NCBI RefSeq assembly: GCF_009912395.1
Contig: NZ_WNDO01000002.1
Coordinates: 186,001-250,000 of the forward strand
Direction of reading: 5' to 3'
DNA from: Luteibacter sp.
Lineage (GTDB): Bacteria > Pseudomonadota > Gammaproteobacteria > Xanthomonadales > Rhodanobacteraceae
DNA: 64,000 nucleotides
A program made the translations under genes and the position numbers. The notes beneath the pieces were generated by a model that was not told the origin of the DNA, did not search any database, and saw nothing but the letters and a program-made list of their open reading frames with translations. The first letter of the stretch is position 1; every line of letters begins with the position of its first letter. Shown here piece after piece: positions 6,798-63,119 of the stretch.

Positions 6798-6883
6798 ACC
6801 GCCCCGGGAGGCGGGTTTACTATTTCCCGCGAATGTTCGGCCCCTCCGTGGGATGGGCCGGTTAGCTGACATTTGGAGACATC

Positions 6884-7417
6884 ATGCAGAACAACGATCC
6901 CCATGTGCCGGATCCGGCGCAGGAAAGCGGCGCCGACTACGGCGTGAACGCGGACCTCGACGCACTGACCGCCAAGCTGGCGGCCCTCGAATCCGACCTG
7001 TCCCAGGCGCGCGAGACGGTATTGCGCGAGCGGGCGGAGATCGAAAACCAGCGTCGTCGCCTCCAGCGCGATCTGGACCAGGCTCGCCGCTTCGCCAACG
7101 AGAAGCTGCTTGGCGAGCTGCTGCCGGTCTACGACGGCCTGGCCCTGGGCCTGTCGAACGAGAGCGCGGATGCGAAGACCCTGCGCGAAGGCCTCGAGCT
7201 GACGCTGAAGCAGCTGGAAAAGGTGACCCAGGCCAACGGCCTGACCCTGGTCGATCCGCTGCACCAGCCGTTCAACCCGGAACACCATCAGGCGATCAGC
7301 TCGGTCGAGTCGAACGAGCATGCGCCGAACACCGTCGTGGCCGTGGTCCAGAAGGGCTTCGTGCTGAACGATCGTCTGCTGCGTCCGGCGCTCGTCGCCG
7401 TGGTGCGCGACAACTGA
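6884..7417 (+). CDS. grpE: Nucleotide exchange factor GrpE
   Basis: GrpE drives ADP release from DnaK. The 177-residue product has a long N-terminal coiled coil (LTAKLAALESDLSQARETVLRERAEIENQRRR, residues about 27-60) and a C-terminal beta domain with FNPEHHQAISSVE and VVAVVQKGFVLNDRLLRPALVAV. GGAG lies 5 bases before the ATG. A hairpin of about 7 bp followed by three T (6796-6818) sits between hrcA and this gene and may attenuate transcription. Confidence 0.96.
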   Translation: MQNNDPHVPDPAQESGADYGVNADLDALTAKLAALESDLSQARETVLRERAEIENQRRRLQRDLDQARRFANEKLLGELLPVYDGLALGLSNESADAKTLREGLELTLKQLEKVTQANGLTLVDPLHQPFNPEHHQAISSVESNEHAPNTVVAVVQKGFVLNDRLLRPALVAVVRDN

Positions 7418-7470
7418 ACGAAAGCCCGCCGCATGTGCTTCATCGGCATGCGACGGGATCTCACAAGGCA

Positions 7471-7498
7471 TTGAATCGTTGGGGCGCAGCCCCACTTT
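7471..7498 (+). promoter_or_regulatory. Sigma-32-like promoter of dnaK
   Basis: TTGAAT (7471-7476) and CCCCACTTT (7490-7498) are separated by 13 bp, close to the sigma-32 consensus CTTGAAA-N(11-16)-CCCCATNT. The second box overlaps a short hairpin, GGGGC-GCA-GCCCC. It lies 52 bp before the dnaK start. Confidence 0.6.
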
Positions 7499-7549
7499 CA
7501 TCACAGCAGCGGCCGCGGGGGCCGCATTGAATTTCGGAGCAACTTCATC

Positions 7550-9475
7550 ATGGCCAAGATCATCGGCATCGACCTCGGTACCACCAACAGCTGCGTTGCA
7601 GTGATGGAAGGTACGACCGCGCGCGTCATCGAGAACGCCGAGGGCGATCGCACCACGCCGTCCATCGTCGCGTTCACCAAGGACAACGAAGTCCTGGTCG
7701 GCGCGCCGGCCAAGCGTCAGAGCGTCACCAACCCCAAGAACACCTTCTACGCGGTGAAGCGCCTCATCGGCCGCAAGTTCACCGACGCCGAAGTGCAGAA
7801 GGACCTCAAGCTCGTTCCTTACGGCATCGTCGCCCACGATAACGGCGACGCCTGGGTGCAGACCGCCGACGGCAAGAAGATGGCCCCGCAGGAGATCTCC
7901 TCGAAGGTCCTGATGAAGATGAAGAAGACCGCCGAGGACTTCCTCGGTGAGTCGGTGACCGAAGCGGTCATCACCGTCCCGGCCTACTTCAACGACAGCC
8001 AGCGCCAGGCGACCAAGGACGCCGGCAAGATCGCCGGCCTCGACGTCAAGCGCATCATCAACGAGCCGACGGCCGCCGCGCTGGCCTATGGCCTCGACAA
8101 GACCTCCACGGCCGATCGCAAAATCGCCGTGTACGATCTCGGCGGCGGCACCTTCGACGTGTCGATCATCGAGATCGCCAACGTCGACGGCGAGAAGCAG
8201 TTCGAAGTGCTGGCCACCAACGGCAACACCTTCCTGGGCGGCGAAGACTTCGACAACCGCGTCATCGACTACCTCGTGGAAGAGTTCAAGAAGGAGCAGG
8301 GCATCGACCTGCGCCAGGATCAGCTCGCCCTGCAGCGCCTGAAGGACGCCGCCGAGCGCGCGAAGATCGAACTCTCGTCGGCGCACCAGACCGACGTGAA
8401 CCTGCCGTACGTCACCGCCGACGCCTCGGGCCCGAAGCACCTGAACATCAAGCTGACCCGCGCCAAGCTGGAGTCGCTGGTGGAAGACCTGGTCAAGGGC
8501 ACCATCGAGCCGTGCCGCACCGCGCTCAACGACGCCGGCCTGCGCGTGTCGGACATCCACGAGGTGATCCTCGTCGGTGGCCAGACCCGCATGCCCAAGG
8601 TGCAGGAAGCGGTGAAGGACTTCTTCGGCAAGGAAGCGCGCAAGGACGTCAACCCGGACGAGGCCGTCGCCGTCGGCGCCGCCATCCAGGGTGGCGTGCT
8701 GGGCGGTTCGGTGAAGGACGTGCTGCTGCTCGACGTGACCCCGCTGTCGCTCGGTATCGAGACGATGGGTGGCGTGATGACCAAGCTCATCGAGAAGAAC
8801 ACCACGGTGCCGACCAAGGCCTCGCAGACCTTCTCCACCGCCGACGACAACCAGACGGCCGTGACCGTGCACGTGCTCCAGGGTGAGCGCGAGCGCGCCA
8901 ACGCCAACAAGTCGCTGGGCAAGTTCGACCTCTCGGGTATCCGTTCCGCGCCGCGCGGCACGCCGCAGATCGAAGTGACCTTCGACATCGACGCCAACGG
9001 CATCCTGCACGTGTCGGCGAAGGACAAGGACACCGGCAAGGAACAGAAGATCGAGATCAAGGCCGGCTCGGGCCTCTCGGACGAAGAGATCCAGCGCATG
9101 GTCGCGGACGCGGAAGCGAACCGCGAGGAAGACAAGAAGTTCCACGAACTGGTGCAGGTCCGCAACAAGGCCGACCAGCTCGTCCACGCGACCCGCAGCC
9201 AGCTCAAGGAGCACGGCGGCAAGATCCCGGCCGAGCAGCTGGCCACGATCGACGGCGCGGTGTCCGACCTTGAGAAGGTGAAGGACAGCGACGACAAGAT
9301 GGCCATCGAGTCGAAGATCGCCAACCTCGAGCAGGTCGCCCAGTCGCTCTACGCGGCGGCCCAGAACGGCGGCGCGTCGGACACGGCCCAGCAGTCGGCC
9401 CCGGGTGGCGGTTCCGCCCAGCCGGACGACGTGGTCGATGCCGAGTTCACCGAAGTCAAGGACGAAAAGAAGTAA
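7550..9475 (+). CDS. dnaK: Chaperone Hsp70, DnaK
   Basis: DnaK is the ATP-dependent Hsp70 chaperone. The 641-residue protein has phosphate-binding loops [10 protein letters not shown] (residue 5) and [10 protein letters not shown] (about 197), the adenosine motif VGGQTRMP, the interdomain linker region [14 protein letters not shown] (about 390) and the substrate-binding beta domain, closing with the conserved acidic tail [12 protein letters not shown]. The long open frame on the opposite strand over this gene (6656-9526) is a codon-bias shadow. Confidence 0.98.
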
Positions 9476-9599
9476 TTCGTCCTCGAAGGGTAGGGCGGCG
9501 CCGGTGGATGCCGGCGCCGTCACCAACGGTCAATCGGTTCGGACGCGCCGTGGCGAAAGCTGACGGCGCGTTTGTCCGTCCAGGGAAAGCAAGCGTGAC

Positions 9600-10733
9600 A
9601 TGAGCACCAAGCGCGACTACTACGAAATTCTCGGTGTGGAACGCACCGTTACCGAGGGTGACCTCAAGACCACTTTTCGTCGCGTCGCGATGAAGTACCA
9701 CCCCGACCGCAATCCGGACGATCCGGCGGCGATCGATAAATTCAAGGAAGCCAAGGAGGCCTACGACGTACTCTCCGACGCGCAGAAGCGCGCAGCGTAC
9801 GATCAGTACGGCCATGCCGCCTTCGAAGGCGGTGGCTTCGGTCGTGGCGGTGGCGCCGGTGGTTTCGGCGACGTCGGCGACATCTTCGGCGACATCTTTG
9901 GCGATATTTTCGGTGGCGGCGGCGGACGTCAGCGTGCGCGTCGCGGCGCCGACCTGCGCTACATGATGGACCTGGATCTCGAGGAAGCCGTGTTCGGCGT
10001 CGAGAAGAAGATCCAGATTCCCACCCAGGTGAACTGCCACCACTGCAATGGTTCGGGCTCGGAAGACGGTAAGGTTTCCAAGTGCTCCACCTGCGCCGGC
10101 CATGGCCGCGTGCGCATGCAGAACGGCATCTTCTCCATCCAGCAGGCGTGCCCCACCTGCCATGGTTCGGGGCAGAAGATCGACAAGCCCTGCAAGAAGT
10201 GCCATGGCGAGGGTCGCATCGAGGAAGAGCGCACGCTGTCGGTGCGCATCCCGGCGGGCGTCGACAACGGCGACCGTATTCGCCTCACGGGGCAGGGTGA
10301 AGCCGGTCCGGCCGGTTCGCCGGCGGGCGATCTCTACGTGGAAGTGCGCGTGCGCGAGCATGCGATCTTCCAGCGGGACGGTTCCGACCTCTACTGCGAG
10401 ATGCCCATCCGCTTCGCCCAGGCGGCGCTTGGCACGGACCTGATGGTGCCGACGCTGGAAGGCGAGGTCTCGGTGAACGTGCCGCCGGAGACACAGACCG
10501 GACACCAGTTCCGTCTGCGCGGTCGCGGCGTGAAGTCGGTGCGTGGCGGTCGCACGGGCGATCTCATCTGCACTGTGGTGGTGGAGACGCCGGTTCGCCT
10601 CACGAAGGAGCAGCGCGAACTGCTGCAGCAGCTGGAAGCGACCTTTGTCGGTGAAGAGGCCTCCAAGCACACGCCGCGCTCGAACAGCTTCATGGACGGC
10701 GTCAAGGACTTCTGGTCCCGCGTCACCTCCTAA
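9600..10733 (+). CDS. dnaJ: Co-chaperone Hsp40, DnaJ (type I)
   Basis: DnaJ delivers substrates to DnaK and stimulates its ATPase. In this 377-residue protein the J domain carries the HPD tripeptide in YHPDRNPDD (residue about 33). A Gly/Phe region follows (residues about 75-105) with three tandem GDIF units. The zinc-binding domain has four CxxCxGxG modules ([32 protein letters not shown]), then the C-terminal substrate domain. It lies 124 bp after dnaK; that gap contains a GGCGCCGG/CCGGCGCC hairpin that could lower downstream expression. Confidence 0.97.
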
Positions 10734-10743
10734 CTCCGTACCC

Positions 10744-10818
10744 GTGATCGCGCGCAAGCGCGCTCCTACACCGCCCGGCACCCCGGCTGTTGTTGTAGGA
10801 GCGCGCTTGCGCGCGACC
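10744..10818. repeat. REP pair, tail-to-tail
   Basis: A reverse-oriented REP unit (10745-10770, ending CTCCTACA) is followed by a forward unit (starting TGTAGGAGCG at 10794). The order is opposite to the pair at 3849, so the Ts of the two units face each other. Confidence 0.85.
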
Positions 10819-10928
10819 GTTCCGGAGTCGTGAATTGGGCGCCGGTGGGGCGGCATCCCATCGAGCGCACGGTTTACGGTTCACGCTTTGCAGCATGGCG
10901 CGTTATGCCCTGCGACTCACCTCTCCGC

Positions 10929-11010: not shown

Positions 11011-11805
11011 ATGACCCGCCCCATCCGTCTTGCCATCAGCGGCGCCTCCGGTCGCATGGGTCTCGCGCTGCTCAACCTGTTGCGCGAAGACGGACGTTTC
11101 GAACTGGTGCGGGCCATCGTTTCGACGAAATCCGTGCGCCTGGGCAAGGCGGTCTACGGTGACGTCTCGCCGTTGCGCTTCTCCGCCTGGAACGATGCGT
11201 CGGGCATCGACGTGGTGATCGACTTCAGTGGTCCCGAAGGTCTCGATCAGGCGCTCGATCACTGCGAGGCGAGCGGTGCGGCGCTGGTCACCGGTACCAC
11301 CGGCCTTTCCGTCGAACAGGAAGCCCGCCTGACCCGCGCCGCCGAGCGCATCGCCGTACTGCGTGCGGCCAACTTCAGCCTTGGCGTGGCCGTGCTCACG
11401 CGCCTGCTGCGCGAAGCGGCCGCGGCGCTGCCGGGCTGGGACCTCGACATCGTCGAGGCCCACCACAGCCGCAAGGAGGACGCCCCTTCGGGCACCGCGC
11501 TGGCACTGGGTCATGCGGCCGCCGCCGGGCGTGGCGCCACGCTGGAGGAGCTGGCCGTCTATTCCCGCGAGGGGCGTCCTGGCGCCCGCAAGGCCGGCAC
11601 CATCGGCTTCGCGGTCGTGCGCGGCGGTGACATCGTCGGCGAGCACCAGGCCTTGCTGATGGGGCAGGGCGAACGCGTCGAACTCGGTCACCGTGCCACC
11701 GATCGCTCGATCTTCGCCCGCGGCGCCCTCGAATCCGCCGCGTGGATCGCCGGCCGCGCCCCCGGCGCCTGGACCATCGAAGACGTGATCGCCGCCAAAG
11801 TGTAG
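11011..11805 (+). CDS. dapB: 4-hydroxy-tetrahydrodipicolinate reductase DapB
   Basis: DapB makes tetrahydrodipicolinate with NAD(P)H in the lysine/diaminopimelate pathway. The 264-residue protein has an N-terminal Rossmann motif GASGRMG (residue about 10), the DFSGPEG block, TGTTGLS, and the substrate loop DIVEAHHSRKEDAPSGTAL, which supplies the catalytic histidine and lysine. The ATG at 11011 begins MTRPIRLAISGASGRMG, with GAAGG upstream; the open frame continuing to 10888 runs through a REP unit and is not coding. Confidence 0.96.
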   Translation: MTRPIRLAISGASGRMGLALLNLLREDGRFELVRAIVSTKSVRLGKAVYGDVSPLRFSAWNDASGIDVVIDFSGPEGLDQALDHCEASGAALVTGTTGLSVEQEARLTRAAERIAVLRAANFSLGVAVLTRLLREAAAALPGWDLDIVEAHHSRKEDAPSGTALALGHAAAAGRGATLEELAVYSREGRPGARKAGTIGFAVVRGGDIVGEHQALLMGQGERVELGHRATDRSIFARGALESAAWIAGRAPGAWTIEDVIAAKV

Positions 11806-11990
11806 GAGCGCGCCTTGCGCGCGACCGGTACGGAGGTAAGTGAGTCGGCCGCTATCGCGGCCTGTAGGAGCGCGCTTGCGCGCGATCCCGGGGCAAGTCG
11901 CGCCACCTACAGCGCGTCGCGACTTTCAGGCCGCGCCAGCGGCTGACTCACTCGCTCCGGCCCATCGCGCGCAAGCGCGCTCCTACAGAC
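11804..11990. repeat. Compound 187-bp inverted REP/MITE-like element
   Basis: The interval starts and ends with inverted REP units (11804 and 11965-11990), has a third unit at 11862-11886, and contains longer inverted arms: AGTGAGTCGGCCGC...CGCGGCC on the left mirrors GGCCGCG...GCGGCTGACTCACT on the right. The whole block is thus nearly palindromic. It sits between dapB and the manganese riboswitch. No transposase is encoded nearby. Confidence 0.75.
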
Positions 11991-13238: not shown

Positions 13239-13250
13239 TTGCGCTTAGCC

Positions 13251-13316
13251 CGGTCGCGCGCAAGGCGCGCTCCTACACAAACCGACCTGTAGGAGCGCGC
13301 CTTGCGCGCGACCAGT
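13251..13316. repeat. REP pair, variant with CCTTG
   Basis: A tail-to-tail pair of REP units, GGTCGCGCGCAAGGCGCGCTCC... and ...TAGGAGCGCGCCTTGCGCGCGACC, carries the extra C/G also seen in the unit at 11804. It separates the convergent transporter and oxygenase genes. Confidence 0.8.
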
Positions 13317-13329
13317 TCGAAGCGACGCC

Positions 13330-18649: not shown

Positions 18650-19128
18650 GCAGCACACGTCCACCCATGACCCAGAAGGGCGCAGACCGCCTGCGCACCG
18701 AGCTTGAGCACCTCAAGGGCCCGAAGCGCCAGGCGATCATCGCCGCGGTCGCCGAGGCTCGTGCTCATGGCGATCTGAAGGAGAACGCCGAGTACCACGC
18801 CGCACGCGAGGAACACGGCTTCAACGAAGGTCGCATCGCCGAGTTGGAGGCCGCGCTGTCGAACTCCGAGGTCATCGACACCGAGCGTCTTGCGGTCGGT
18901 TCGCGCATCGTGTTTGGTGCGATCGTCGAACTGGTGGACCTGGACTCCGAGGCCGAAGTCACCTACCAGATCGTGGGCGACGTGGAAGCGGACATCAAGA
19001 AGAACCTGATCGCGGTGTCCTCGCCGATCGCGCGTGCGCTGATCGGCAAGAGCGAAGGCGACGAGTTCGACTTCACGGCGCCGAACGGCGTGAAGAGCTA
19101 CGAGATCAAGGGCGTGCGGTACAGCTGA
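18646..19128 (+). CDS. greA: Transcription elongation factor GreA
   Basis: GreA rescues backtracked RNA polymerase by stimulating transcript cleavage. The 160-residue protein has the N-terminal antiparallel coiled coil with its acidic tip (residues about 20-80, including [23 protein letters not shown]) and the C-terminal FKBP-like domain ([18 protein letters not shown]). The ATG at 18646 overlaps the carB stop (ATGA) with AAGGAG 8 bases upstream; an internal ATG at 18667 is a possible alternative. carA-carB-greA form one operon closed by a strong terminator. Confidence 0.96.
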
Positions 19129-19154
19129 TTCCGCCGCGTCGCCTGGTGACTGAA

Positions 19155-19182
19155 AACGCCCCCTTGAGGGGCGTTTTTTTTG
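19155..19182 (+). terminator. Rho-independent terminator after greA
   Basis: Perfect stem AACGCCCC / GGGGCGTT around the loop CTTGA, running into eight further T. It ends the carAB-greA transcript 26 bp after the greA stop. Confidence 0.95.
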
Positions 19183-19648
19183 CGGCGACAGCGTGTCGCG
19201 ATAACCGCGGACCGAGGCACTGGATTCCCGCGTTCGCGGGAATGACGGTAGGTGGGTGGTCGCAAGCGGGGGGGTAACCTCCGTCGTTCTTGCTCAGGCA
19301 ACGGCTATAGCTGGACCAAGCGGTGTGACACGCCATTCGCGATAACCCCAGGCTTCGCCGTAGGCACCGGCCTGCGCCGGTGCGACGTGCCCCGTCGTAC
19401 CGGCGCAGGCCGGTACCCACCGCATCGGTTCACCCGCAACGCGATAACGCTTCTTCGGATCGTGTGCGGGCAACGCATTCGCCCGCTCGTCGCTCCCGCG
19501 AAAGCAGGGGCCTAGCGCGGTGAGCCCGGGCGAAGCGAAACGCCGGGACCGTGCTTTTCCGACCCTCGCAGACATTGGGGCGACCTACTGGAAATCGGCA
19601 GTCAGGCGTTTAAGATGCAGGCGGGGCAACCAATCTGCGGGGGTGGGT
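19183..19648. repeat. 466-bp intergenic region with palindromic repeats
   Basis: No gene seen. The region holds ATTCCCGCG-TT-CGCGGGAAT (about 19224-19243) and an imperfect inverted pair built on GGTACCGGCCTGCGCCGG-type sequence (about 19360-19430: CACCGGCCTGCGCCGGTGCGACG against CGTACCGGCGCAGGCCGGTA). These families differ from the TAGGAGCG REP units. TTTAAGAT at 19608-19615, 34 bp before the permease ATG, is a possible -10. Confidence 0.6.
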
Positions 19649-21289
19649 ATGGGCGCTGGACGGGTGGACGGACATGTCGCTGGGCCGCTGGCTCGCGAAC
19701 GCACGATCGCGGGACCATCCTTCAATCGCTGGTTGGTACCACCTGCCGCGTTGGCCATTCATCTCTGCATCGGCATGGCCTACGGCTTCTCGGTCTTCTG
19801 GCTGCCCATGACCAAGCTGGTGCCAGGCGCGGACGCCGCGACCTGCGCCGCGCAAGGCTTCCTCGACCAGCTCACCACGACCATGTGCAACTGGACGGTG
19901 CCCTCGGTCAACCACGTCTTTGAGACCTTCATCGCCATGCTGGGCCTGGCGGCCGCGATCTGGGGCGGCTGGCTGGAGCATGCGGGCCCGCGCAAGGCCG
20001 GTTTCATCGCTGCCTGCTGCTGGGGCGGCGGCCTCGTGATCGGCGGCATCGGCATGGCGATCCATCAGCTCTGGCTGGTCTACCTCGGTTGCGGCCTGCT
20101 GGGAGGCATAGGGCAGGGCCTGGGCTACATCACGCCGGTCTCCACCCTGATCAAGTGGTTTCCCGACCGGCGCGGACTCGCCACGGGCTTCGCCATCATG
20201 GGCTACGGCGGCGGCGCCATGATCGGCGCGCCGATCGCCGTGAAGCTCATGGACGTGTTCCGTCAGGGCGAAGTGGCTGGCGTTGCGGCGACCCTCGCCA
20301 CGATGGGTGTCCTGTACTTCGTGGTCATGTCGCTGGGCGCCTTCGGCTTCCGCGTGCCGCCAGCGGGATGGAAGCCGATCGGTTGGCAGCCGGACACGCA
20401 TACCAAGGCGGCGCCGATGGTGACGCGAGGGCATGTGCACCTCGACCAGGCCTGGAAAACACCGCAGTTCTGGCTCATCTGGGGCGTGCTTTGCATGAAC
20501 GTCACGGCGGGTATCGGCGTGATCTCGATGGCGAGCCCGATGCTGCAGGATGTCTTCGGCGGTCGCTTGCTGGGCGTGGACCCGACTACCGAGCTAAGCG
20601 TCGCCCAGAAAGCGGCGATCGCCGCCGCGGCCGCCGGCCTGGTGGGCCTGGTCAGCCTGTTCAACAGCGTCGGTCGCCTGTTCTGGGCATCGGCCTCCGA
20701 CATCCTGGGGCGTAAGTTCACCTACGTCATCTTCTTCGTCCTCGGCATCTCGCTCTACTGCCTCTTGCCCAGCCTTGGTCACTACGGCATGGCGGCACTG
20801 TTCGTGATCACCGTTTGCGTGATCCTGTCGATGTACGGCGGCGGCTTCGCCACCGTGCCCGCGTATCTGGCGGATATCTTCGGGACCCAGATGGTCGGTG
20901 CCATCCACGGACGCCTGCTCACGGCCTGGTCGGTGGCGGGTGTTATCGGACCGGTCTTGATCGCCAGCATTCGCGAATCGCAGCTTGGCGCCGGCGTGGC
21001 GAAGAACCTCGTCTATGACCGCACGCTCTACATCCTCGCGGGCCTGCTGCTGGTCGGACTGATCTGCAACCTGCTGGTGCGTCCCGTGGATCCGCGCCAT
21101 CACATGAGTGAGGAGCGGCTGCGCAAGGAGCGCTCGCTGCAGCACGAGGCGCAAGCCTCCGAGGCCGCGCTGGCCGCCGCCGCGCGCGGACCGTTCGGCG
21201 CGCTCGGACTCGTTGCGTGGCTCGCGGTGGGCATACCTTTCCTGATCGGTGTCTGGATCGCCTTGCAGAAGGCCGCCGCGCTGCTATAA
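19649..21289 (+). CDS. Major facilitator permease, oxalate/formate antiporter (OFA) type
   Basis: This 546-residue integral membrane protein has about 12 transmembrane helices. OFA-like features are the first helix AIHLCIGMAYGFSVFWLPMTK, the GGIGQGLGYITPVSTLIKWFPDRRGLATG loop between helices 4 and 5, and SVGRLFWASASDILGRK in the second half. Family members move small carboxylates; the substrate here is unknown. Between helices 1 and 2 it has an insertion with two cysteines. I start at the ATG at 19649, preceded by GGGGGTGGGT; the frame to 19520 is an alternative. Its stop is 33 bp before the SonM-like gene, so the two may be cotranscribed. Confidence 0.85.
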   Translation: MGAGRVDGHVAGPLARERTIAGPSFNRWLVPPAALAIHLCIGMAYGFSVFWLPMTKLVPGADAATCAAQGFLDQLTTTMCNWTVPSVNHVFETFIAMLGLAAAIWGGWLEHAGPRKAGFIAACCWGGGLVIGGIGMAIHQLWLVYLGCGLLGGIGQGLGYITPVSTLIKWFPDRRGLATGFAIMGYGGGAMIGAPIAVKLMDVFRQGEVAGVAATLATMGVLYFVVMSLGAFGFRVPPAGWKPIGWQPDTHTKAAPMVTRGHVHLDQAWKTPQFWLIWGVLCMNVTAGIGVISMASPMLQDVFGGRLLGVDPTTELSVAQKAAIAAAAAGLVGLVSLFNSVGRLFWASASDILGRKFTYVIFFVLGISLYCLLPSLGHYGMAALFVITVCVILSMYGGGFATVPAYLADIFGTQMVGAIHGRLLTAWSVAGVIGPVLIASIRESQLGAGVAKNLVYDRTLYILAGLLLVGLICNLLVRPVDPRHHMSEERLRKERSLQHEAQASEAALAAAARGPFGALGLVAWLAVGIPFLIGVWIALQKAAALL

Positions 21290-21322
21290 CGGACATCGAT
21301 GGTAGGGGGAGAGGGTGCTTCG

Positions 21323-22111
21323 GTGGGGGGAAGTCTGGTCTGTGCGGGTGTCGGCATGACACTCGGTTCGCATCTGACACCGCTGGCGCGCAGCGAAATC
21401 GAGGGTGCGGACGTCATTTTCGTGGCGGTATCCGACGCCATGGTCGAACGCTGGGTCGCGTCGATGCATCCGGACGTGCGCAGCCTTCAGCCGCTCTATG
21501 CCGAAGGCAAGCCGCGCACGGAAACCTATGCGCACATGGTGGACGCCATCCTTGCGGAGGTGAGGGCGGGGCGGCGGGTCTGTGCCGTGTTCTACGGTCA
21601 TCCGGGCATCTTCGTGTCCGCTTCCCATGCGTGTATCCGCCAGGCGCTCGCCGAGGGCTATTCGGCGCACATGGAGCCAGGCATTTCCGCATCGGACTGC
21701 CTGTATGCCGACCTGGGCATCGATCCGGGCGGTGTCGGTTGCCAGCACTACGAAGCCACGCAGTTCCTGCTGCATGAGCGGCGCATCGATGCCGCCGCCT
21801 GGCTCATCCTGTGGCAGGTCGGGTTGGTGGGCGATCTGAGCCTGGGGCGGCGGGAGACCGGTGCGGCGTACCGACAGGTCCTGGTGGATGTGTTGTGCCG
21901 TGACTTTCCCGAAGGGCATGAGGTCATCCTGTATCGGGCTCCGATCCTGCCGTTGGAGGGGCCGCATATCGTCCGTGTGCCGCTCCATGCGCTGCCTGCG
22001 GCGGACTTCGGCACGGGCTACACCCTCGCCGTGCCGCCCTGCGCCAGCCTGCGGGTAGCCCCGGACATTCTCGCCCGCTTGCGGGCCCTTTCGTTTGACG
22101 CAGACGCTTGA
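21323..22111 (+). CDS. SonM-like peptide backbone alpha-N-methyltransferase (split borosin)
   Basis: The 262-residue protein belongs to the tetrapyrrole-methylase fold and matches, motif by motif, the borosin enzyme SonM of Shewanella as I recall it: GGSLVCAGVGMTLG at the start, QPLYAEGKPRTETYAHMVDAIL, the cofactor strand RRVCAVFYGHPGIFV, then EGYSAHMEPGISASDCLYADLGIDPG, with H/E/ATQFLL following and LLLWQ-like LILWQVGLVGD. Such enzymes use SAM to methylate backbone amides of a separate precursor peptide. The GTG at 21323 has GGGGGAGAGG 8 bases upstream and gives the SonM-like N-terminus; the ATG at 21299 is less likely. It lies 145 bp before the precursor gene. Confidence 0.87.
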   Translation: MGGSLVCAGVGMTLGSHLTPLARSEIEGADVIFVAVSDAMVERWVASMHPDVRSLQPLYAEGKPRTETYAHMVDAILAEVRAGRRVCAVFYGHPGIFVSASHACIRQALAEGYSAHMEPGISASDCLYADLGIDPGGVGCQHYEATQFLLHERRIDAAAWLILWQVGLVGDLSLGRRETGAAYRQVLVDVLCRDFPEGHEVILYRAPILPLEGPHIVRVPLHALPAADFGTGYTLAVPPCASLRVAPDILARLRALSFDADA

Positions 22112-22256
22112 TCGGCTTCACATTCCTGGGGTCCCGGCCAGAAGGCCTACTACTCCAGGGCGTCGCGCAAGCGATATCATCGACTTGCGATCGTCCTCGA
22201 GGGGAGGTGCGACGTGCGGTTGGGCGCCGGGTCGCTGTCGTCCGGGGGTGTCGGGT

Positions 22257-22529
22257 ATGGGCGATGTCATCGAGTTTCTGGCCCGCGTCGGTCGTGACGC
22301 GTCGCTACGCCGTGCGCGCGGCGATGGGTATGACGAAGCATTGGAGCGTGCTGGATTCGATCCGTCTACGACACGGGCACTCAAGGCCCGCGATGGCGAC
22401 ACCCTGCGGGTGTTGATGGGACACGGCGTCTACTTCGATGTAAGCGGCCACTTGGTCTGCAAAATCGGGCCTCTTGATTTGCGAAGCGCTGGAAGGCGCG
22501 GGACGGCCACTTTAACGGCCCTTTATTAG
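22257..22529 (+). CDS. Borosin precursor peptide, SonA-like, interrupted by the prophage (chimeric 3' end)
   Basis: As read today it is 90 residues. Residues 1-55 form a helical binding domain like SonA: FLARVGRDASL, then ALERAGFDPSTTRALKARDG and DTLRVLMG, which matches the NHLP/LigA-like leader fold. Native sequence ends at D61: the Mu-like prophage begins at 22439, so residues 62-90 (VSGHLVCKIG... TLTALY) are read from phage DNA. The original 3' part is found at 61229-61327 and rejoins in frame. GGGGG lies just before the ATG. The chimera probably lacks the natural core, though it could still bind the methyltransferase. Confidence 0.8.
   Translation: MGDVIEFLARVGRDASLRRARGDGYDEALERAGFDPSTTRALKARDGDTLRVLMGHGVYFDVSGHLVCKIGPLDLRSAGRRGTATLTALY
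22434..22438. repeat. Target-site duplication, left copy
   Basis: TTCGA directly before the prophage TG end. The identical pentamer follows the CA end at 61229-61233. Five-base duplications are the rule for Mu-family transposition. Confidence 0.8.
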
Positions 22530-22550
22530 CGGCTCAAAGCGCGGTTAAAG
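22510..22550 (+). repeat. Candidate transposase-binding sites near the left (late) prophage end
   Basis: Two adjacent sites, CTTTAACGGCCCTTTATTAG (22510) and CTCAAAGCGCGGTTAAAG (22533), share the pattern CTTYRAAYGSCSTTTAA with sites on the minus strand at 60607-60630 and 60991-61011. They lie 71-111 bp inside the prophage end, where Mu has its R sites. Confidence 0.35.
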
Positions 22551-22592
22551 ACCCCGCCCAGGCGGAAAAAGCGACGCGGAAGGGGCAGACAG

Positions 22593-22621
22593 GAAAAGAC
22601 CTCCCAGCAGTCGGAGAGGCC
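22593..22621 (-). terminator. Terminator at the end of the prophage late operon
   Basis: Minus-strand GGCCTCTCC ... GGGAGGTC stem followed by TTTTCC. It lies just downstream of the lipoprotein gene. The stem has a mismatch or wobble pair, so strength is uncertain. Confidence 0.55.
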
Positions 22622-22641
22622 TCCCTGGCTGCCCTTGGATA

Positions 22642-22983
22642 TCACCTGGCGCGAACGGAGGTAGGGCCGCTGGTCGTCTGAAAGCGCTCCAGCTTGCCGT
22701 CAGGCCCGAACTCCATAGCCAGCCCTTCACTACCACTATCTCCGTTCCCCGTGAACCCATTAATGCGGGACTTCACATGGACGTAAATCAGCCCGACTTC
22801 ACCGTTCGAATGGCGCCGAACCTGGGATGGCTCGCCAAACCAAGCCTTCGCTTCTTCGATCGTTGTGACCCCGACCTTCAGGCGGGCCTGTGCAGCCGGA
22901 TCAATGGCATGGCCGGTCTCGACGGTGGCGCACGCCGAGAGTCCGAGCATCAACGCCGCTATCAAGAATCGCGAATGTCGCAT
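22642..22983 (-). CDS. Small lipoprotein at the prophage edge (possible moron)
   Basis: The 113-residue product starts with a lipoprotein signal peptide (MRHSRFLIAALMLGLSAC; lipobox LSAC, Cys18). The mature part, KVGVTTIEEAKAWFGEPSQV ... GLAMEFGPDGKLE, resembles the BamE/SmpA-type fold. It lies between the tail-tip gene and the prophage end, outside the structural gene order, with a 165-bp leader and its own terminator. It may be a lysogeny-expressed accessory gene that alters the host envelope; that role is inferred from position only. Confidence 0.7.
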   Translation of the reverse strand: MRHSRFLIAALMLGLSACATVETGHAIDPAAQARLKVGVTTIEEAKAWFGEPSQVRRHSNGEVGLIYVHVKSRINGFTGNGDSGSEGLAMEFGPDGKLERFQTTSGPTSVRAR

Positions 22984-23148
22984 AGCTCACCCTGTGTGAT
23001 TTCATCCGTGGGACGGCAGCATAGCCGAGGTTGAGCAGGGCCGCTCCGGCCATCGCCGCCGTCCGCCCCCCATAAAACCAGTCCCGCCGGCTCGGCCTGG
23101 ACGTCCCAGCTAGGGCCGGGCTGCGTCAACAGCCCGGTGCCCCGATTA

Positions 23149-26100
23149 CTAGAGCGTCGTCGAGAACCGGTAGGCGGTACCCACGGTCCAGGGCAGCGAC
23201 ACGCCGCTGAAAGGCTTGTAATCCGTCCACGCCTGGTTGTCGTCGGACCACTGCACCACGAAGTCGACCGGCGCGCGATCGGTGTTATCAGGCGTGTGGG
23301 GCTGTGCATACAGCCACAGCTCGGCGGGCACGAACCTGGTGCCAGCCAAGAGGTCGACCGACAACCACCACGGCCCAGTGGTCGACATGCCGCCATCCGC
23401 GAACGTAAAGGCGTTGGAACCGACGCCGCTGGTGTCATGCCACACGTAAGACGCGCCCTGCAGCGGATTGGATGCGGCGTAGGGCTTGTCACCACGGGTC
23501 ATCGCAGCATCTTCGGCCTCGCCGGCCTGCAACAGAAGGCCCGCCGCACCCAGCGCGAAGTACCGCTGTCCCATGTTGCCGATCTTGGTGACGTACAAAC
23601 GCCAATAGCGGTGACCGTCCTTGCAGAATGCACGTCGCTCACCCAGGCTCCAGGACGCGATGCCTGACGTCGAGACCAGGTCGGTCCATTGATCACCGTC
23701 GTCACTCCACTGCACCCGGAGCGCAGCCGGCGCTTCGTCGGCGCCGCCTTCGCGCGGCGCTGTGATCGCCACGCCCTGCACATCCGGTTTGACGCCCTCG
23801 CCGAAGTCGTACTGCACCCATTGCGGCGCGGACTTGCCCGAGGCCCATTTGCCTGACCCTGATCCGTCGAACGCCTTGTCGGCGCCGTAGCCAGAGAGTG
23901 CCGCGCTGGCCGTGGGCGTGCCGCCCAGCGCAACGATCGGGGCGTTCCTGGCGCCAAGAAATTCGACCTGCGCCAGGCTGACGTTGGCGCCGGCGGTCGC
24001 TTCGACCATCACTCGCCAATACCGGTGGCCGGTCTGGGGAGGCGCGGTCAACTGTGCGAGTCCAGTCAGTACGCGATCCGACAGTGCGGCCGCATGCAGC
24101 GAGAACCACATCACGCTGGCGTCGATACCATCGGTCGTGCCGCTGCCGCCGATCTGGATGCCATTGGGTGCCACGGATACAGGTCCCGACACCGCCACCG
24201 ACGAGACCTTGACGTTGTCCACGAGCAACGACAGATCGTTACCTGCCCGCCGCAACACGATCAGCCGCGCCTGGGCGTCCATCACCGATACGGCGGTCGA
24301 CACGTCGTTGTAAGACGTCGACGGCGTGCTGACACGGCCTACCAGGTGGCCGTCGCTCTTCTGGGCCTGGAGCAGATAGGTCGCCAGGCCGTTGCTGGCC
24401 GCGACGAACTTCGCGATCAGCTTGGGATAGTTACCGGTGTCCGCGCCTGGCGCCGCGATCGACGCGCCAATGATGAGCGTGAAGTCACCCGTCAAGTCCT
24501 GCCACGCGCCATACGGGATGGTCAGCGCGCCACCAGGCAAGCGCACCGAGCGGGCACCGCCAGCGAAGAGGCTAGGCGCTGCCAGCTGGGCATTCGCCGG
24601 ATAGGCACCATGCCGCTCGTAGCCGCTGATATCGGACGCGACGCTGCCCTCTGGGTCGTTGCAGGGGATGAATACAAGGGGCGACTGCGACAGGACCGCC
24701 TGCTCATACGGCGTAAGCGCTGGACGGGCCGCATTGAACCGCCGCGCTTCTGCCGCGCCCCAGCCGGTCTGGCCCTTGACGCTGATGACGTCGGTCCATC
24801 GTTGCGCATCGTCGCTGACCTGCAAGACGAAGTCCCGCACGGCGGCGTCGGCCAGGTCACCACCGCTGTACTGGCCGACGATCTCGATGCCGTACACGGG
24901 CGTCGACACACCGAAGTCCCATTGCAGCCAATGCGGCGGGGCCACGGGCTGGGCTGTCCACTTCTTGCCAAGGTCCGTGCCGAAGGCATTGGCGGCGGGG
25001 TTCTGGGTGTTCGCGGTGCTGTCGGCGGACGCTCGTGCGTCGGCGTCCGCTGGAGACGTAAGGCTGTTGCCGGCGACATCCAGGAACCGGAGCTTGCAGA
25101 TGGAGGTGTACTGATCGCCGTTGTTTGCGAGCACCAGCACGCGCCAATAGCGGCCGATCGAGGCCGTGGACGAGGCGATGCTTATCGTGTCGGCGAGCGT
25201 CACCACCTGGTCCGATCCATCGGTCACCGAGATCACAAACGAGGCCTGCGACTCCGCCGTGGGTGTCCCGGAGAGGCGTCCGGTATCCACATCCAGTGTG
25301 AGGCCGGCCGGCAGCTGCCCGGACGCAATCGACCAGCGATAGGGGGCAACGCCACCGGCCGCCGTGTAGCGGTAGCTGTAGGCGTAGCCCACTCGACCGC
25401 TCGGCGCGCGGCCGGTGACGTGGAGGACGGCGACGTAAACGAACGAAGTGGTCGCCACCTGCATGCACGACAACCCGTCACGCACCGATACCACTTCGAC
25501 CCGCGCCGGGCCATTGGTCGCCAGGTTCGCCGAATAGCTTGCACCGGCAATGCCTTCACGCGTGTGCACCAAGATGCTGCCGAGGTAGGTGCGTACGGTG
25601 TAGGTCGTGCCAGGCTCGGGGCCGATCGATGGCTGCGTCGCGTCGACGAGCTGATCCCGCTGCGCCTTGCGGTCACGGTGCGACCAACTCAGGTCGATGG
25701 GACCGATCACCTGAAGCACGGAGCGTTGGCCGCCTACCTTGAGGTCCGCTGGCGGATACGGCCGTGCCTGGCGGCGTGCCAGCGTCAGCGACGCGATTGG
25801 CGCCAGGGCCTCATCCAGCTCGCCCTGGCCCGTGCGGGTCAGCAGCTTGGCCTGGATGGTTTCGCCAGCCAGGTACTCGGTCGCGTCCGCGCCGGTAAAG
25901 AAGTCCGTAAACCAGACCCGCGCATTGGCGTTGTGCGCGGCGGGCAACGTATCGCCACAACCGCGAGCCAGTGTGACCGCGCCCGTGGTGGCGTCGATGG
26001 CGTCCACTCGCAACACCTCGTCATCGATGAGCGCCTCGGTACCGACCGCGACCTGATCCAGATCGCGGGTTGAGGTCAGCACGGCGACGATGGGTTCCAC

Positions 26101-40929: not shown

Positions 40930-42078
40930 TCAGGCCGGACGGGCCGCGATGAAGTCCTTGGGATCGGTCCCCAAGGCCGTGCACACCGCCAGTTCGTCGG
41001 CGGTGAGGCCGTGTTCGTTTTGCGTCACGCGCTGGTCGCCGCGCGTCTGCGTGCGGGTCAGCGCAGCGATGGGTACGGCCTTTTCCAGGTACGCGCTAAG
41101 CGAGGCCAAATTGGACTTGCCCAGGTCGCGGGCCCAACCTTCCTGGGCCGGCAGCAGACGACCATCGGCCAGACCGGCCTTGACCAGTTCGTCGACGTCC
41201 TTGTCGACCTGGCGGGCGGTCAGCGCCGCGACGGTGTTCTTCAGATCCTCCACCACGGCCACAGAGACGAACTTGCTCGGGTCCGGGGTGTGGGCCGAGT
41301 CGGCGCGCTGTTTGAGTGAGCTGCAGGCGGCGACCAGATCGTCGGTGGCGCCGATGCCCAGCGCGGCGCGCGCCTTCTCCAGGTCGGCCGGCACGGCCGC
41401 CTTCAGGCGGGCGGTGAGGGCCGCGAGGGCATCCACCTCGGGCGTGGATTCGGGCAGGCCGAGGGCGGCCAGGAGGGCTTTGAGAAGCGGATTCATGAGG
41501 TCGTCCTCAGTGGTAAGTCCGAAAGTGGCGGCGGCCTGGCGAGCCAGCGGCTCCATGCCGTGAATCGCCGGGTCGTTGGTGATGGCAGCCATCCGGATGT
41601 CGAGCACCTCGCCCGACACCGGGTCATAGGTGAACACCGGGCTGACGTACTGGTACTCGAGGCCGTCGATGAGCTGCTGGGCCCGTGCCGTCATGTCGGC
41701 CACGCCGTAGAGGCCCTGGCCGTCCACCCATTCCAGGGATTTGATCCAGCCAGCGGCCGGCGCCGGCTGACCGTTTTCTTCCTTGTTTAGGGTCTGATGC
41801 TCGTAGTCGAGCACCGCGGGGTTCTTCCGCGCGGCGAAGCGGGCGATGACACGCTGCGCGATGGTGCCGTCGATGACCCACTGGCCGGAGGCGGGCAAGT
41901 CGGTACGCCCATCGGAGGGCTTGAAGGGGCCACCCGGGGTGAGCTGGATGCGGCGAGGGCCATCACCGGCTTGCGCATCGACCTTGGATACCCACGCAGC
42001 GATCGCAACGCGGGGGACGCGGCCGGCCGAGCAGGCGGCCAGGGCGGCAATGCGGGGTTGGGAGCGAAGGCGAGGCAT
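40930..42078 (-). CDS. Prohead protease/scaffold, Mu gpI-like
   Basis: The 382-residue protein resembles Mu gpI: an N-terminal protease domain (residues about 50-190, with VLDYEHQTLNKEENGQPAPAAGWIKSLEW, ATNDPAIHG-like AAITNDPAIHGMEPL) and a C-terminal helical scaffold (ALTARLKAAVPADLEKARAALG onward). In Mu the internal Z start makes a scaffold-only form; here an internal ATG (MNPLLKALLAALG) could do the same. I start at MPRLRSQPRI (42078), ahead of which a non-coding gap lies. Confidence 0.88.
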   Translation of the reverse strand: MPRLRSQPRIAALAACSAGRVPRVAIAAWVSKVDAQAGDGPRRIQLTPGGPFKPSDGRTDLPASGQWVIDGTIAQRVIARFAARKNPAVLDYEHQTLNKEENGQPAPAAGWIKSLEWVDGQGLYGVADMTARAQQLIDGLEYQYVSPVFTYDPVSGEVLDIRMAAITNDPAIHGMEPLARQAAATFGLTTEDDLMNPLLKALLAALGLPESTPEVDALAALTARLKAAVPADLEKARAALGIGATDDLVAACSSLKQRADSAHTPDPSKFVSVAVVEDLKNTVAALTARQVDKDVDELVKAGLADGRLLPAQEGWARDLGKSNLASLSAYLEKAVPIAALTRTQTRGDQRVTQNEHGLTADELAVCTALGTDPKDFIAARPA

Positions 42079-42324
42079 GGCGCCATGGTGGCGATCGCCC
42101 GATGGCGACCAGGAACGAAGCCCTTCGCCCCATATCACGTCGATTCGATGCCGCCTCGACGCCGGTGATCCCAGCGCATTTTTACCCTACGCCTGTCCTT
42201 ACGGTGGCAGCAAGGGGCGTGGCACCCGTTTGACACCCTTTAAACCCCGTTTAAAAACGTCGAGGGGGTGGTTGTCCGGACCCTTGCCGCCCCCCGGGGG
42301 TCTCCACGCGCCTTACGGCGCGTT
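42079..42324. other. Central non-coding gap between gpG and gpI genes (possible gyrase site)
   Basis: This is the longest gap within the late operon and lies about 245-490 bp from the exact prophage midpoint (41,834). In Mu the strong gyrase site sits in the same place, between G and I. The gap holds TTTTAAACGGGGTTTAAAGG on the minus strand (42236-42256) and a hairpin ACGCGCC/GGCGCGT with a T run that points rightward, opposite to the operon. Confidence 0.45.
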
Positions 42325-44147: not shown

Positions 44148-44310
44148 GCCCGCTCCACGGCGCGACGGCCAGGTACAGGGCCTGGAGCTGGTCGAAGGTC
44201 AGCGTGACCTCCAGCTGCGCGCCGAACGACACGATGAGATCATGGGCGGTGACCTCGATGACCTCCACGGCGGTCAACTCATCGGCGGACAGGTCGGCCT
44301 GGAGCAGCAC
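44140..44310 (-). CDS. Small phage protein between portal and gpF (56 residues)
   Basis: A short frame starting at the GTG at 44310 (sharing its G with the portal TAG stop) and ending inside the gpF start. The product begins MLLQADLSADELTAVEVIEV and ends ALYLAVAPWSGRG. Composition is normal, it fills the portal-gpF gap exactly, and both ends overlap neighbours, which supports real coding. Function unknown. Confidence 0.7.
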   Translation of the reverse strand: MLLQADLSADELTAVEVIEVTAHDLIVSFGAQLEVTLTFDQLQALYLAVAPWSGRG

Positions 44311-45896
44311 TACACGCTCCCCGCTTCGCGCAGGATCTCATAGCGCCCGGCCAGCGCGGCCGCCGCCAGGCCTTCGCGCATGGCCTGTGTGTAATCCTCC
44401 AGCGTCATGTCCGGCACCAGGGCCATGAGCTGGTCGCGCAGCTCGGCCAACGACGTCGCGGCCGCCGCCGCCGCGCGGATCTGCTCGAGCCAGCCGTCCA
44501 GCGCGGGCGAGACCGCCGTGGCTAGCTGATTGACCATGCGCGCCGGCGGATCCTGCGGACCGGTCGGGCGAACGGAAGATGCTGATGCCTGCGCGTGCAC
44601 GAGGTCGGTGATCGGCGAGGGCGGCGTGACCGCCTTAGGCGGGGCGACCAGAAGATCGGTTTCGTCCGCCTCCGGCTCGGGTATGCCGACGCGCTCCTGC
44701 GCCCATTGACGCGACACACGAAAGCCCATGCCGACCAGGGTCGGCAACGATTCGGCCATCGCTGCCAGATCGTCCGGCTCTTCGGTGATGAACTTGAAGC
44801 GGGGGCAACGACGCAGGTCGGTGGCCAGCCCGTTAAGCACAGCGATGGGATAGATCAGGTCGTGCCATATGGTGGCGGCCACCTGGCGCGCATCGCCATC
44901 ACGCAGATCCTTGCGAACCTCGTTGTGGACCTTACCCAGCGCGTTGGTGCTGCTTTTGCCATCGGCCTGGCTGGTTAGCGTACCGCCCAGGATGACCTTC
45001 GATTGCGTGCGTTCGCACCAGTCGATCATAGCCTTGAAGGCGTCCGGATCGCCCGTGGCGGCGTCCTTGAAATCCAGTTCCATGCCGTTGGGAATGATGC
45101 CGGCGGCGTTGTGCCCTACTTCGGCCAGCGCGCGCAGCAAGGTCAGCTTGTCCTGCTGACTGGAACCGGGCGGGTACTTGCCGATGCGGATGGGGATGCC
45201 GTAAATCTCCAAGAACTCGGCCAGGTCGGCCACGGAGTAGTTCTTGAACAGGTACGGCCAGGCCAACACCCGATACATGGACGAGCGCGCCAGGTAGCCG
45301 GACTTCGCCCGATGCGTGTGGGTGATCCAGCCGAAGGGTTGCAGCGGCTCGCCCTCGGGCGTGCCATCGCGAAGACGCAGTTCCTCGCGATAGCCACGAT
45401 GGATCATGAACCAGCTTTGTGGGCGGTGGGTGACCGACGCCGGAATCCAGGTGGCGCCAACCTGGGCCCATTCGATTTCCAGACATGCGTACCCCTTACC
45501 GATCGCGTCGGTGACGTCGAAGATCAGCTCTTCGATATCAGGAATCTCCGCGATCAGTTCCTTGAGCGTCTTAGCGGCCGCCTTCTCGGCCGCGCTCGGA
45601 TTGGGCGGCGGCACGATGTCCCACTCCAGCTGCTTGATCGCGCCTCGGCGCTTCAACATCTCGCTGGCCAGGTGGCCGTCTTTTTCCTCCATGTCTTCGA
45701 ACAACTCGGCCTGCCCGACCAGGTTGCCCTGCTCGGCCATTTCGAGAATGCCGGCCAAACGCGAGGGCGTAAGGCCTCGGCTGGGGTGGCCTTGCCATTC
45801 GTTGCGCAACTGACCGGTACGGCTGGTTTGCGGCTGGGCGAGGTCCGCCTTGGCGATCGGCTCGCCGTTGGGGCCGAGGATGGTTGGCGTCACCAT
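44310..45896 (-). CDS. Portal protein, Mu gp29-like (DUF935)
   Basis: The 528-residue protein forms the DNA entry portal. DUF935 features include QAELFEDMEEKDGHLASEMLKRRGAIKQLEWDIVPP near residues 55-100, the YACLEIEWAQVGATWIPASVTHRPQSWFMI block and GIPIRIGKYPPGSSQQDKLTLLRAL in the centre, then SKVILGGTLTSQADGKSS. It follows the large terminase with an overlapping start. Confidence 0.93.
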   Translation of the reverse strand: MVTPTILGPNGEPIAKADLAQPQTSRTGQLRNEWQGHPSRGLTPSRLAGILEMAEQGNLVGQAELFEDMEEKDGHLASEMLKRRGAIKQLEWDIVPPPNPSAAEKAAAKTLKELIAEIPDIEELIFDVTDAIGKGYACLEIEWAQVGATWIPASVTHRPQSWFMIHRGYREELRLRDGTPEGEPLQPFGWITHTHRAKSGYLARSSMYRVLAWPYLFKNYSVADLAEFLEIYGIPIRIGKYPPGSSQQDKLTLLRALAEVGHNAAGIIPNGMELDFKDAATGDPDAFKAMIDWCERTQSKVILGGTLTSQADGKSSTNALGKVHNEVRKDLRDGDARQVAATIWHDLIYPIAVLNGLATDLRRCPRFKFITEEPDDLAAMAESLPTLVGMGFRVSRQWAQERVGIPEPEADETDLLVAPPKAVTPPSPITDLVHAQASASSVRPTGPQDPPARMVNQLATAVSPALDGWLEQIRAAAAAATSLAELRDQLMALVPDMTLEDYTQAMREGLAAAALAGRYEILREAGSV

Positions 45897-51450: not shown

Positions 51451-51723
51451 TCAGTGCGTTCTTGTCTGTGTAGGATCGGCAACGCGGGCGTTGCGCACCT
51501 GGTCAGCTAGCGATGCCCATATCAACATGGCGTCATCGAGGCCAAGCTCACCCAGCGCGCCGCCGAGCACCAATCCGAGAACCATGGCAACGAACACGGC
51601 CGTGCAGTCGGCCTCGCCGTGGTAACGCTCGCCCATGATCCGGACGGCCTCGAGGCCCAAGCGGGTACCTTCCGCTTTGGCTTCGTCGAAACGTGCCTGC
51701 TGAATCCCCAGCGAACTCGTCAT
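51451..51723 (-). CDS. Phage protein of unknown function
   Basis: A 90-residue protein with a helical N-terminus (IQQARFDEAKAEGTRLGLEAVRIMGERYHGEADC) and a hydrophobic, glycine-rich stretch (FVAMVLGLVLGGALGELGL) that may be a membrane helix. It overlaps the GemA-like gene stop and precedes mor. Confidence 0.65.
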   Translation of the reverse strand: MTSSLGIQQARFDEAKAEGTRLGLEAVRIMGERYHGEADCTAVFVAMVLGLVLGGALGELGLDDAMLIWASLADQVRNARVADPTQTRTH

Positions 51724-52175
51724 GCCTTCCTCCCGCGCCGCTGCTGGTCGTAAGACAGTGCGGCGACCAGACGATGTATTTGGTCAGGGTTAAGCCATTC
51801 CACCCGTTCCACCTTGAACATCTTGCGCGCGATGCCGTGCGCGTACTCCCACGTTCGGCTCGCCTCAGCTAGCATGGCGCTGATCTTGCCGATCATCGGC
51901 GCGATGTCTGCTCGCGGGCTGTCTGGCGTATCAGGCATCTCGGCGTGGGCGCGGCGCCGCGCCGTATCACCGCTGAGGCGGCGAAGCTCATCCAGCACCT
52001 TCTGGCGTCCTTTACCGTCCAGATCGGCCGAACTGGTGACGCCCGACACGCGCGACAGGAGCGCGACGTAGGTCTCACGGTCCAGGCCGAGTTGCTTGTT
52101 TGCCAGCACGTGGATGGCGGCGAGCTGGGCGGTCCGACGCTGCGCTGCGCCGGTTACTTGTATCGTCTTACGCAT
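51720..52175 (-). CDS. GemA / Mu gp16-like regulatory protein (DUF1018)
   Basis: The 151-residue product matches the DUF1018 family: LAAIHVLANKQLGLDRETYVALLSRVSGVTSSADLDGKGRQKVLDELRR (split over residues about 18-65) and the C-terminal YAHGIARKMFKVERVEWLNPDQIHRLVAAL. In Mu, GemA affects host gene expression and DNA modulation. The ATG at 52175 starts MRKTIQVTG and overlaps the preceding gene by 8 bases. Confidence 0.88.
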   Translation of the reverse strand: MRKTIQVTGAAQRRTAQLAAIHVLANKQLGLDRETYVALLSRVSGVTSSADLDGKGRQKVLDELRRLSGDTARRRAHAEMPDTPDSPRADIAPMIGKISAMLAEASRTWEYAHGIARKMFKVERVEWLNPDQIHRLVAALSYDQQRRGRKA

Positions 52176-60617: not shown

Positions 60618-60630
60618 AGGGCATTCAAAG
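60607..60630 (-). repeat. Candidate transposase-binding site, right side (inner)
   Basis: Minus-strand CTTTGAATGCCCTTTAAGTG resembles the sites at 22510 and 60991. It overlaps the repressor stop codon and lies about 600 bp inside the prophage end, farther than Mu L3. Confidence 0.25.
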
Positions 60631-60675
60631 CGGCCGCTCACACGGAGGAATGCCCGCCTACCACAGGGGGTAGAA

Positions 60676-61228: not shown

Positions 61229-61233
61229 TTCGA
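61229..61233. repeat. Target-site duplication, right copy
   Basis: TTCGA directly after the prophage CA end, identical to 22434-22438. Confidence 0.8.
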
Positions 61234-61280
61234 TACACAGATGGGAGAGGAGTCGCCATCCGAGGACGAGGAGTCAGGGA

Positions 61281-63119
<1,839 letters not shown>

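Follow-up and report, generated by a model that had tools for sequence, protein, structure and literature searches.

We find that the window, a stretch of 64,000 nucleotides from a Luteibacter sp. contig, carries a three-gene split-borosin cassette that is conserved in relatives and consists of a methyltransferase, a precursor with a borosin-binding domain and a TPR-GGDEF diguanylate cyclase. The precursor is interrupted within its core by a Mu-like prophage; the borosin locus is thus broken in this strain, and the peptide pathway is probably off. The explanation that we regard as best, and to which we would give roughly an even chance, is that the methylated peptide would be the signal for the cyclase in a three-gene cassette that the prophage has broken here. 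The tight pairing of precursors with one membrane cyclase family offers a concrete, testable role for split borosins and, if the explanation is true, joins backbone N-methylation to c-di-GMP signalling.

The methyltransferase gene (21323-22111, forward strand) lies in a frame open from ATG 21299 to 22111, in which GTG 21323 appears by eye to be a better start than ATG 21299. The stop codon of an upstream permease at 21289 is located 33 bp before this GTG. In a PDB sequence search, SonM (7ltc) was the best match of the methyltransferase (E 1.2e-65, residues 11-261 aligned), as the initial annotation had proposed, followed by fungal fused borosin enzymes (E 8.6e-46 to 2.8e-40), with a precorrin-2 methyltransferase trailing far behind (E 4.8e-4). 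Equivalents of Y58, R67, Y71 and Y93, the active-site residues of SonM probed by mutation (PMC8429565, text seen in part), are present in 54 of 54 aligned borosin methyltransferases. Based on the SonM match, these residues and the dN/dS given below, the gene is predicted to encode a SonM-type peptide backbone alpha-N-methyltransferase. The Pfam match was to PF00590 TP_methylase (E 1.2e-17), and three proteins of the window genome match this family, namely the window methyltransferase and two others which we take to be CysG-like and RsmI-like. No further borosin methyltransferase was found in the window genome, the single match being the window's own. In a tree of 54 borosin methyltransferases and the CysG-like and RsmI-like proteins, the window enzyme falls inside the borosin set, which includes a Shewanella SonM-like protein, and has the L. 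anthropi protein as its sister (support 100/99), while a split with support 100/100 separates the 54 borosin sequences from the CysG-like and RsmI-like proteins, which lie on very long branches. The grouping with CobA/CysG or RsmI that would have overturned the initial annotation is thus not what the tree gives, and on this split and the PDB ranking such an identity was rejected.

The precursor ORF begins at ATG 22257, and residues 1-60 (22257-22436, forward strand) make up the borosin-binding domain. Used alone, the small ORF had no Pfam match, and as a single sequence in a PDB search it returned repeat-protein and other chance matches, with SonA absent. A PDB profile search with 20 relatives, the window precursor included, matched SonA at E 9.5e-10, which confirms the proposed SonA-like precursor with its N-terminal binding domain; enzyme and precursor are likewise separate genes as claimed, with ORFs at 21323 and 22257. 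The model of the L. anthropi orthologue (mean pLDDT 70.4 over all 99 residues) has five predicted helices in residues 2-53, the number reported for the SonA binding domain (PMC8429565, text seen in part). All six Foldseek matches of the binding-domain model were SonA chains, at non-significant E values of 2.0 to 8.4. A second binding-domain gene was not found in the window genome up to E 10, the one match being the window's own. In Luteibacter anthropi the orthologue is uninterrupted (L049, the same place as L031), and its core follows the binding domain in the same frame, containing YFETQMG and ending in an acidic tail; in the window strain the core is interrupted by the prophage.

A profile of the binding domain, made from 12 Luteibacter sequences, identified 81 binding-domain ORFs, spread over 49 of the 58 sequences examined (57 fetched loci and the window). 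With these and the SonA profile match, a chance small ORF was rejected as the identity of the precursor. The nine sequences where the profile had no match comprise seven from Lysobacterales or Kangiella, for which it may be too narrow, and two from Luteibacter (L067 and L069). Inspected by eye, the precursors have no obvious signal peptide. Their core sequences vary widely between clades, long acidic tails stand behind many of them, and the core types (YFxTQM, FYxIQL, PQxSQ, EHMSQTG and PFR-rich) track tree clades by eye. Tandem binding-domain ORFs behind one methyltransferase were observed in L063, with 12 (6844-10434; one of them a partial match of 21.7 bits), and in L064, with seven (6843-9102), all such locus coordinates being given with the locus turned so that the methyltransferase is on the forward strand. 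Precursors with repeated core-like units (e.g. FSAALM, FQATQM, TGTQM and VFAA) were seen in L051 (6822-7133), L055 (6827-7129), L053 (6938-7273) and L040 (7516-7800), which suggests that these may carry several cores per precursor.

The initial annotation gave the locus as 21323..22438. These coordinates are right, and 22438 is the last host base before the prophage, with the core resuming at 61229. The prophage (22439-61228; 38,790 bp), delimited by comparison of its ends and of the target-site duplication and by its Pfam genes, begins with TG and ends with CA. It is flanked by a left copy of TTCGA within the core (22434-22438) and by a right copy (61229-61233), the latter opening the severed rest of the precursor (61229-61327, forward strand), which holds the core from TQMG onwards, the acidic tail and its own stop codon at 61325-61327, and matches the intact orthologue (L002/L049/L031). 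A 5-bp target duplication and TG..CA ends are the pattern of Mu. A sixth base, T, is also common to both junctions and was counted as the first phage base, so the duplication could also be read as 6 bp. Besides these ends, the element shares with Mu-kind transposable phages a Mu transposase (57063-59015; DDE_2, E 1.4e-48), a MuB-like protein (56025-56990; E 2e-20) and, by domain matches, GemA (51720-52331), a Mu portal (44310-45896) and Mu protease I (40930-42138), all encoded on the reverse strand. At the level of DNA it is little like the phages searched: 45 records matched a 20-kb stretch, and the best among the matches listed covers 3% at 70% identity. A large phage protein (23149-27585, reverse strand) has discoidin-like F5/F8 type C and Ig-like domain matches and may be a tail protein that binds the host.

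The host sequence is collinear with the L. anthropi orthologue up to 22438 and again past the prophage (BLAST block from 61254), and bases 61229-61253 read as the same codons as in that orthologue. With both junctions inside one contig, the duplication and these collinear flanks, an assembly join was rejected as the cause of the interruption. The broken precursor reads through the phage end (22439-22529, forward strand), where the first phage base completes codon 61 (Asp) and is followed by 29 phage-encoded residues and a stop at 22529, giving a chimera of 90 aa. The binding domain, the enzyme and the cyclase show no decay relative to L. anthropi (dN/dS 0.27, 0.15 and 0.065, respectively); these values, obtained at synonymous distances of 0.56-0.88, average over the whole time since the two lineages parted and do not date the insertion. 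The prophage separates the cyclase from the upstream part of its operon. A phage repressor-like gene (60135-60617, forward strand; phrog_2328 transcriptional repressor, E 2.8e-7) is directed toward the cyclase, and a crude, low-power pattern scan of the forward strand from 60135 to 61281 found no terminator-like site between the two, so that lysogenic read-through into the cyclase is possible. The window also presents a clean case of a transposable phage whose insertion has hit the core of a borosin precursor, the only one found in the strain.

The GGDEF cyclase that had been noted downstream is indeed there, beyond the prophage, at 61281-63119 (forward strand), contiguous with the far part of the precursor core. 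Its start codon lies inside the 3' end of the precursor, with an overlap of 47 bases, and an ATG occupies the corresponding position in the L. anthropi gene. Pfam identified the GGDEF domain (E 7.8e-36) and TPR_19 below its cut-off, and a profile of the sensor matches TPR proteins in the PDB, the best being an engineered TPR (5.3e-12). The model of the cyclase (mean pLDDT 86.1, pTM 0.58) opens with an N-terminal helix of low confidence and continues with paired helices up to residue 333 or so; a single helix spanning residues 336-435, which should carry the membrane crossing, then leads to the GGDEF domain. In a fold search with this model, all 50 matches listed were diguanylate cyclases and GGDEF proteins. 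The N termini of the cyclases resemble signal peptides or signal anchors by eye, and from these and the model the TPR sensor domain is predicted to be periplasmic. Cys 200, Cys 230 and the letters GGEEF are invariant in 54 of 54 cyclases aligned, and the paired cysteines of the sensor would fit a periplasmic disulfide. Twenty places in the window genome match the cyclase, and only the window locus does so over the sensor.

A cyclase homologue, aligned from about residue 58 through the GGDEF domain, is located downstream of the methyltransferase gene at 54 of the 57 loci or, with L031 and L049 counted as one, in 53 of 56 distinct places, including loci from Shewanella, Kangiella, Steroidobacter, Lysobacter and Dyella. 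At the other three (L069, L081 and L083) no cyclase was found within reach of the methyltransferase. When ORFs of at least 70 aa within 6 kb of the methyltransferase loci were sorted into families, those not overlapping the three cassette genes reached at most 9 of the 57 loci, and within this range neither an exporter nor a protease nor an immunity gene recurred. The GGDEF cyclase is a recurrent third member of the cassette, not a chance neighbour. The farthest-upstream possible cyclase start falls at -1 to +30 nt of the precursor stop in 26 of the 46 loci with both genes, a later possible start falls within -50 to +30 nt in 13 more, and the gap exceeds 1 kb in five. Distances between methyltransferases correlate with those between cyclases (Spearman 0.86 over 54 cassettes and 0.86 over 37 Luteibacter cassettes, neither value being reached in any of 500 permutations); nearest neighbours by methyltransferase and by sensor distance agree in only 18 of 37 cassettes. 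Between paralogous cassettes within one genome (15 pairs), the methyltransferases are 56-70% identical and the sensors 29-46%. Two borosin methyltransferase genes were present in each of the loci L034 (6001-6768 and 9122-9907), L087 (6004-6765 and 7230-7997) and L047 (6001-6798 and 4031-3285).

The initial annotation spoke of one borosin locus in this lineage, little described. The system turns out to be common, with a methyltransferase relative in 23 of 23 Luteibacter genomes and in 94 of 147 genomes (18 of 26 genera) of a family sample. The sensor, counted at E ≤ 0.001, was found in 92 of the 147, all among the 94 with the methyltransferase, and in none of the 53 others; since the genomes are related, these presence counts are not independent. 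Among the 92, the match in G124 is weak (3.5e-4), and the two genomes with a methyltransferase and no sensor are G114 and G143. Genera g9 and g17 each contain genomes with both genes and genomes with neither. In one genus, methyltransferase matches lie inside open frames of 829-893 aa (G124:C13:16343-17077, G143:C7:221376-222119 and G114:C25:33170-33919); these may be fused borosins, and the genomes in question have either no sensor match or a weak one.

In a wider class sample, the methyltransferase was identified in 11 of 369 genomes, two of the matches being weak, and a strong sensor match in at least four (G000, G035, G445 and G505; 3e-16 or better, that of G505 over positions 76-343 of 349). 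All four have the methyltransferase close by on the same contig, with the prophage between in the window genome. In total 68 of the 369 genomes match the sensor at E ≤ 0.001, those beyond the four by partial TPR-like matches at 1e-9 or weaker. The seven other genomes with a methyltransferase match have no strong sensor match, an absence that is soft, as is the sensor count a lower bound, because the best few candidates per genome were scored. The pairing of methyltransferase and cyclase may thus cover only part of the borosins.

Several precursor-cyclase pairs in Luteibacter stand without a local methyltransferase. In 9 of the 12 Luteibacter genomes of the family sample there are more sensor than methyltransferase matches, a comparison in which the per-genome sensor numbers may include partial matches. 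Eighteen high-scoring sensor loci away from any methyltransferase were fetched, and within the 9.6-13 kb taken for each no methyltransferase was present. A binding-domain precursor lies beside the cyclase in 13 of these 18 chosen loci, and none was found in the other five. Of the ten with the sensor closest to that of the window, nine have a precursor and seven show carB and/or greA, which are neighbours of the window locus too.

Split borosins are already known, and the window locus is a broken member with a prophage-split precursor; with its core interrupted, it is filed as a member by descent, not a working one. Type IV split borosins are characterised by backbone alpha-N-methylation of the core and by a dimer of enzyme-precursor heterodimers. 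SonM/SonA from Shewanella oneidensis is a type IV split borosin, in which the methyltransferase docks via the binding domain and methylates the backbone of the core from N to C (PMC8429565, text seen in part). The window locus is like SonM/SonA in having a separate methyltransferase and precursor, a five-helix binding domain (in the orthologue model) and the four active-site residues, and a cyclase of this kind is also present in the Shewanella relative L046, where it may start 6 nt after the precursor. It differs from SonM/SonA in its core (YFETQMG with an acidic tail in the orthologue), in the prophage that interrupts this core, and in the many precursor-cyclase pairs without a local methyltransferase in Luteibacter. 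In the scheme of borosin types 0-XI, the precursor fits Class 3, a separate precursor with binding domain and core; types V-X are there credited to Imani 2022 and Cho 2022, and Lee 2024 is also cited (PMC11395268, text seen in part). The legend of Figure 1 in the same excerpted source lists a GGDEF domain among the drawn parts, and the portion of its text available gives no function for it (PMC11395268). The association of borosins with GGDEF may for this reason be partly known, and an earlier description of the link is possible. The available portions of PMC8429565, PMC11395268 and PMC11285071 give no biological role for bacterial split borosins, and in the borosin literature, as far as its accessible text extends, we found no earlier account of a phage insertion, of methyltransferase-less precursor-cyclase pairs or of a presence/absence comparison. 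Our literature searches returned nothing on borosins with Luteibacter, and SO1480 was absent from what was found on the locus tags SO1478-SO1480.

The fused borosins OphMA and dbOphMA contain a methyltransferase homologous to the window enzyme, the listed fused enzymes matching at E 8.6e-46 to 2.8e-40; their core is fused to the enzyme, whereas in the window it is on a separate precursor. The sensor also resembles RRNPP-type peptide sensors (Rap) in its TPR domain, its profile matching RapF weakly (E 1.5e-4), below many other TPR proteins. RRNPP sensors work in the cytoplasm on DNA or response regulators, whereas the window sensor is predicted to be periplasmic and is joined to a GGDEF domain.

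We favour the reading in which the peptide is a signal, at close to an even chance or slightly under it, because precursor-cyclase pairs are kept without the enzyme gene. According to this reading, the methyltransferase would dock on the binding domain and methylate backbone amides in the short core behind it, and a protease would free the core. The core would reach the periplasm, for which the MFS permease may provide the route in this sublineage; there the periplasmic TPR domain of the cyclase encoded by the next gene would read the peptide and change c-di-GMP. N-methylation might render the signal protease-resistant and membrane-permeant. The window strain would make no proper core from the split gene, which would leave its methyltransferase without an intact substrate and its cyclase cut off from the peptide. 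More tentatively, and somewhat short of an even chance, the split borosins of this clade may constitute peptide signalling as a whole: a backbone-N-methylated RiPP pheromone would be read by a dedicated periplasmic TPR-GGDEF receptor, one methyltransferase could serve several private precursor-receptor pairs per cell, and the phage insertion would have silenced this strain's own channel. Against a signalling role, linkage of the genes would be just as likely for a cyclase that does no more than control production, TPR domains have binding partners of many kinds, and no protease or dedicated exporter is conserved.

A rather unlikely but serious alternative is that the product is an ordinary RiPP natural product (an antibiotic, a metallophore or similar) and that the cyclase responds to a different cue, for instance a nutrient or the state of the envelope, and turns on production via c-di-GMP. 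The same linkage data fit, biosynthetic clusters commonly have their own regulators, and the cores differ widely between clades. The recurrent unit, however, is enzyme, precursor and cyclase only, unaccompanied by any recurring gene for an exporter, a protease or immunity within 6 kb, and precursor and cyclase occur together in those 13 of the 18 methyltransferase-less loci, an arrangement more in keeping with a ligand and its receptor than with a regulator of synthesis. Less probable still is that the cyclase has the binding-domain protein, or the unmodified form of it, as a regulatory subunit, with methylation as a protein switch and not a step to a small product. The small, helical precursors with genes set against the cyclase gene and the long acidic tails of many would agree with this, but the signal-peptide-like N termini of the sensor (by eye) and its invariant cysteine pair point to the periplasm, and the precursors have no obvious signal peptide (by eye). 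It appears very improbable that in the window strain the enzyme still binds and methylates the chimera, in which 29 phage-encoded residues follow the binding domain, to give a new peptide, while the repressor transcript reads into the cyclase; the frame is open to the stop at 22529 and the repressor-like gene points at the cyclase on a strand with no terminator-like site found, but the phage-encoded tail is unlike the cores of relatives, the terminator scan has low power and expression is a supposition. A CobA/CysG- or RsmI-kind methyltransferase beside a chance small ORF would belong to the same fold superfamily (PF00590) and can be set aside: the tree and the match of the precursor profile to SonA refute it, and the SonM match in the PDB, the active-site residues in 54 of 54 enzymes and the 81 ORFs with a binding domain (49 of 58 sequences) speak against it.

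The gene upstream of the cassette (19649-21289, forward strand, starting at ATG 19649) encodes an MFS permease (Pfam MFS_1, E 5.4e-34); the initial annotation called it an OFA permease, a label that we retain as presumptive. The permease is a possible exporter; its homologues were found in 5 of the 57 methyltransferase loci (4 of 56 distinct places), and full-length homologues in 5 of the 18 methyltransferase-less sensor loci. An RNA element close to the two genes was rejected: the four Rfam matches in 19000-23200 are far below gathering scores and all lie upstream of 19424. Finally, a dispersed palindromic repeat was observed in the window at 63175-63202, 13250-13323, 10748-10824 and 11801-11831, and recurs beside the orthologous locus in L049.
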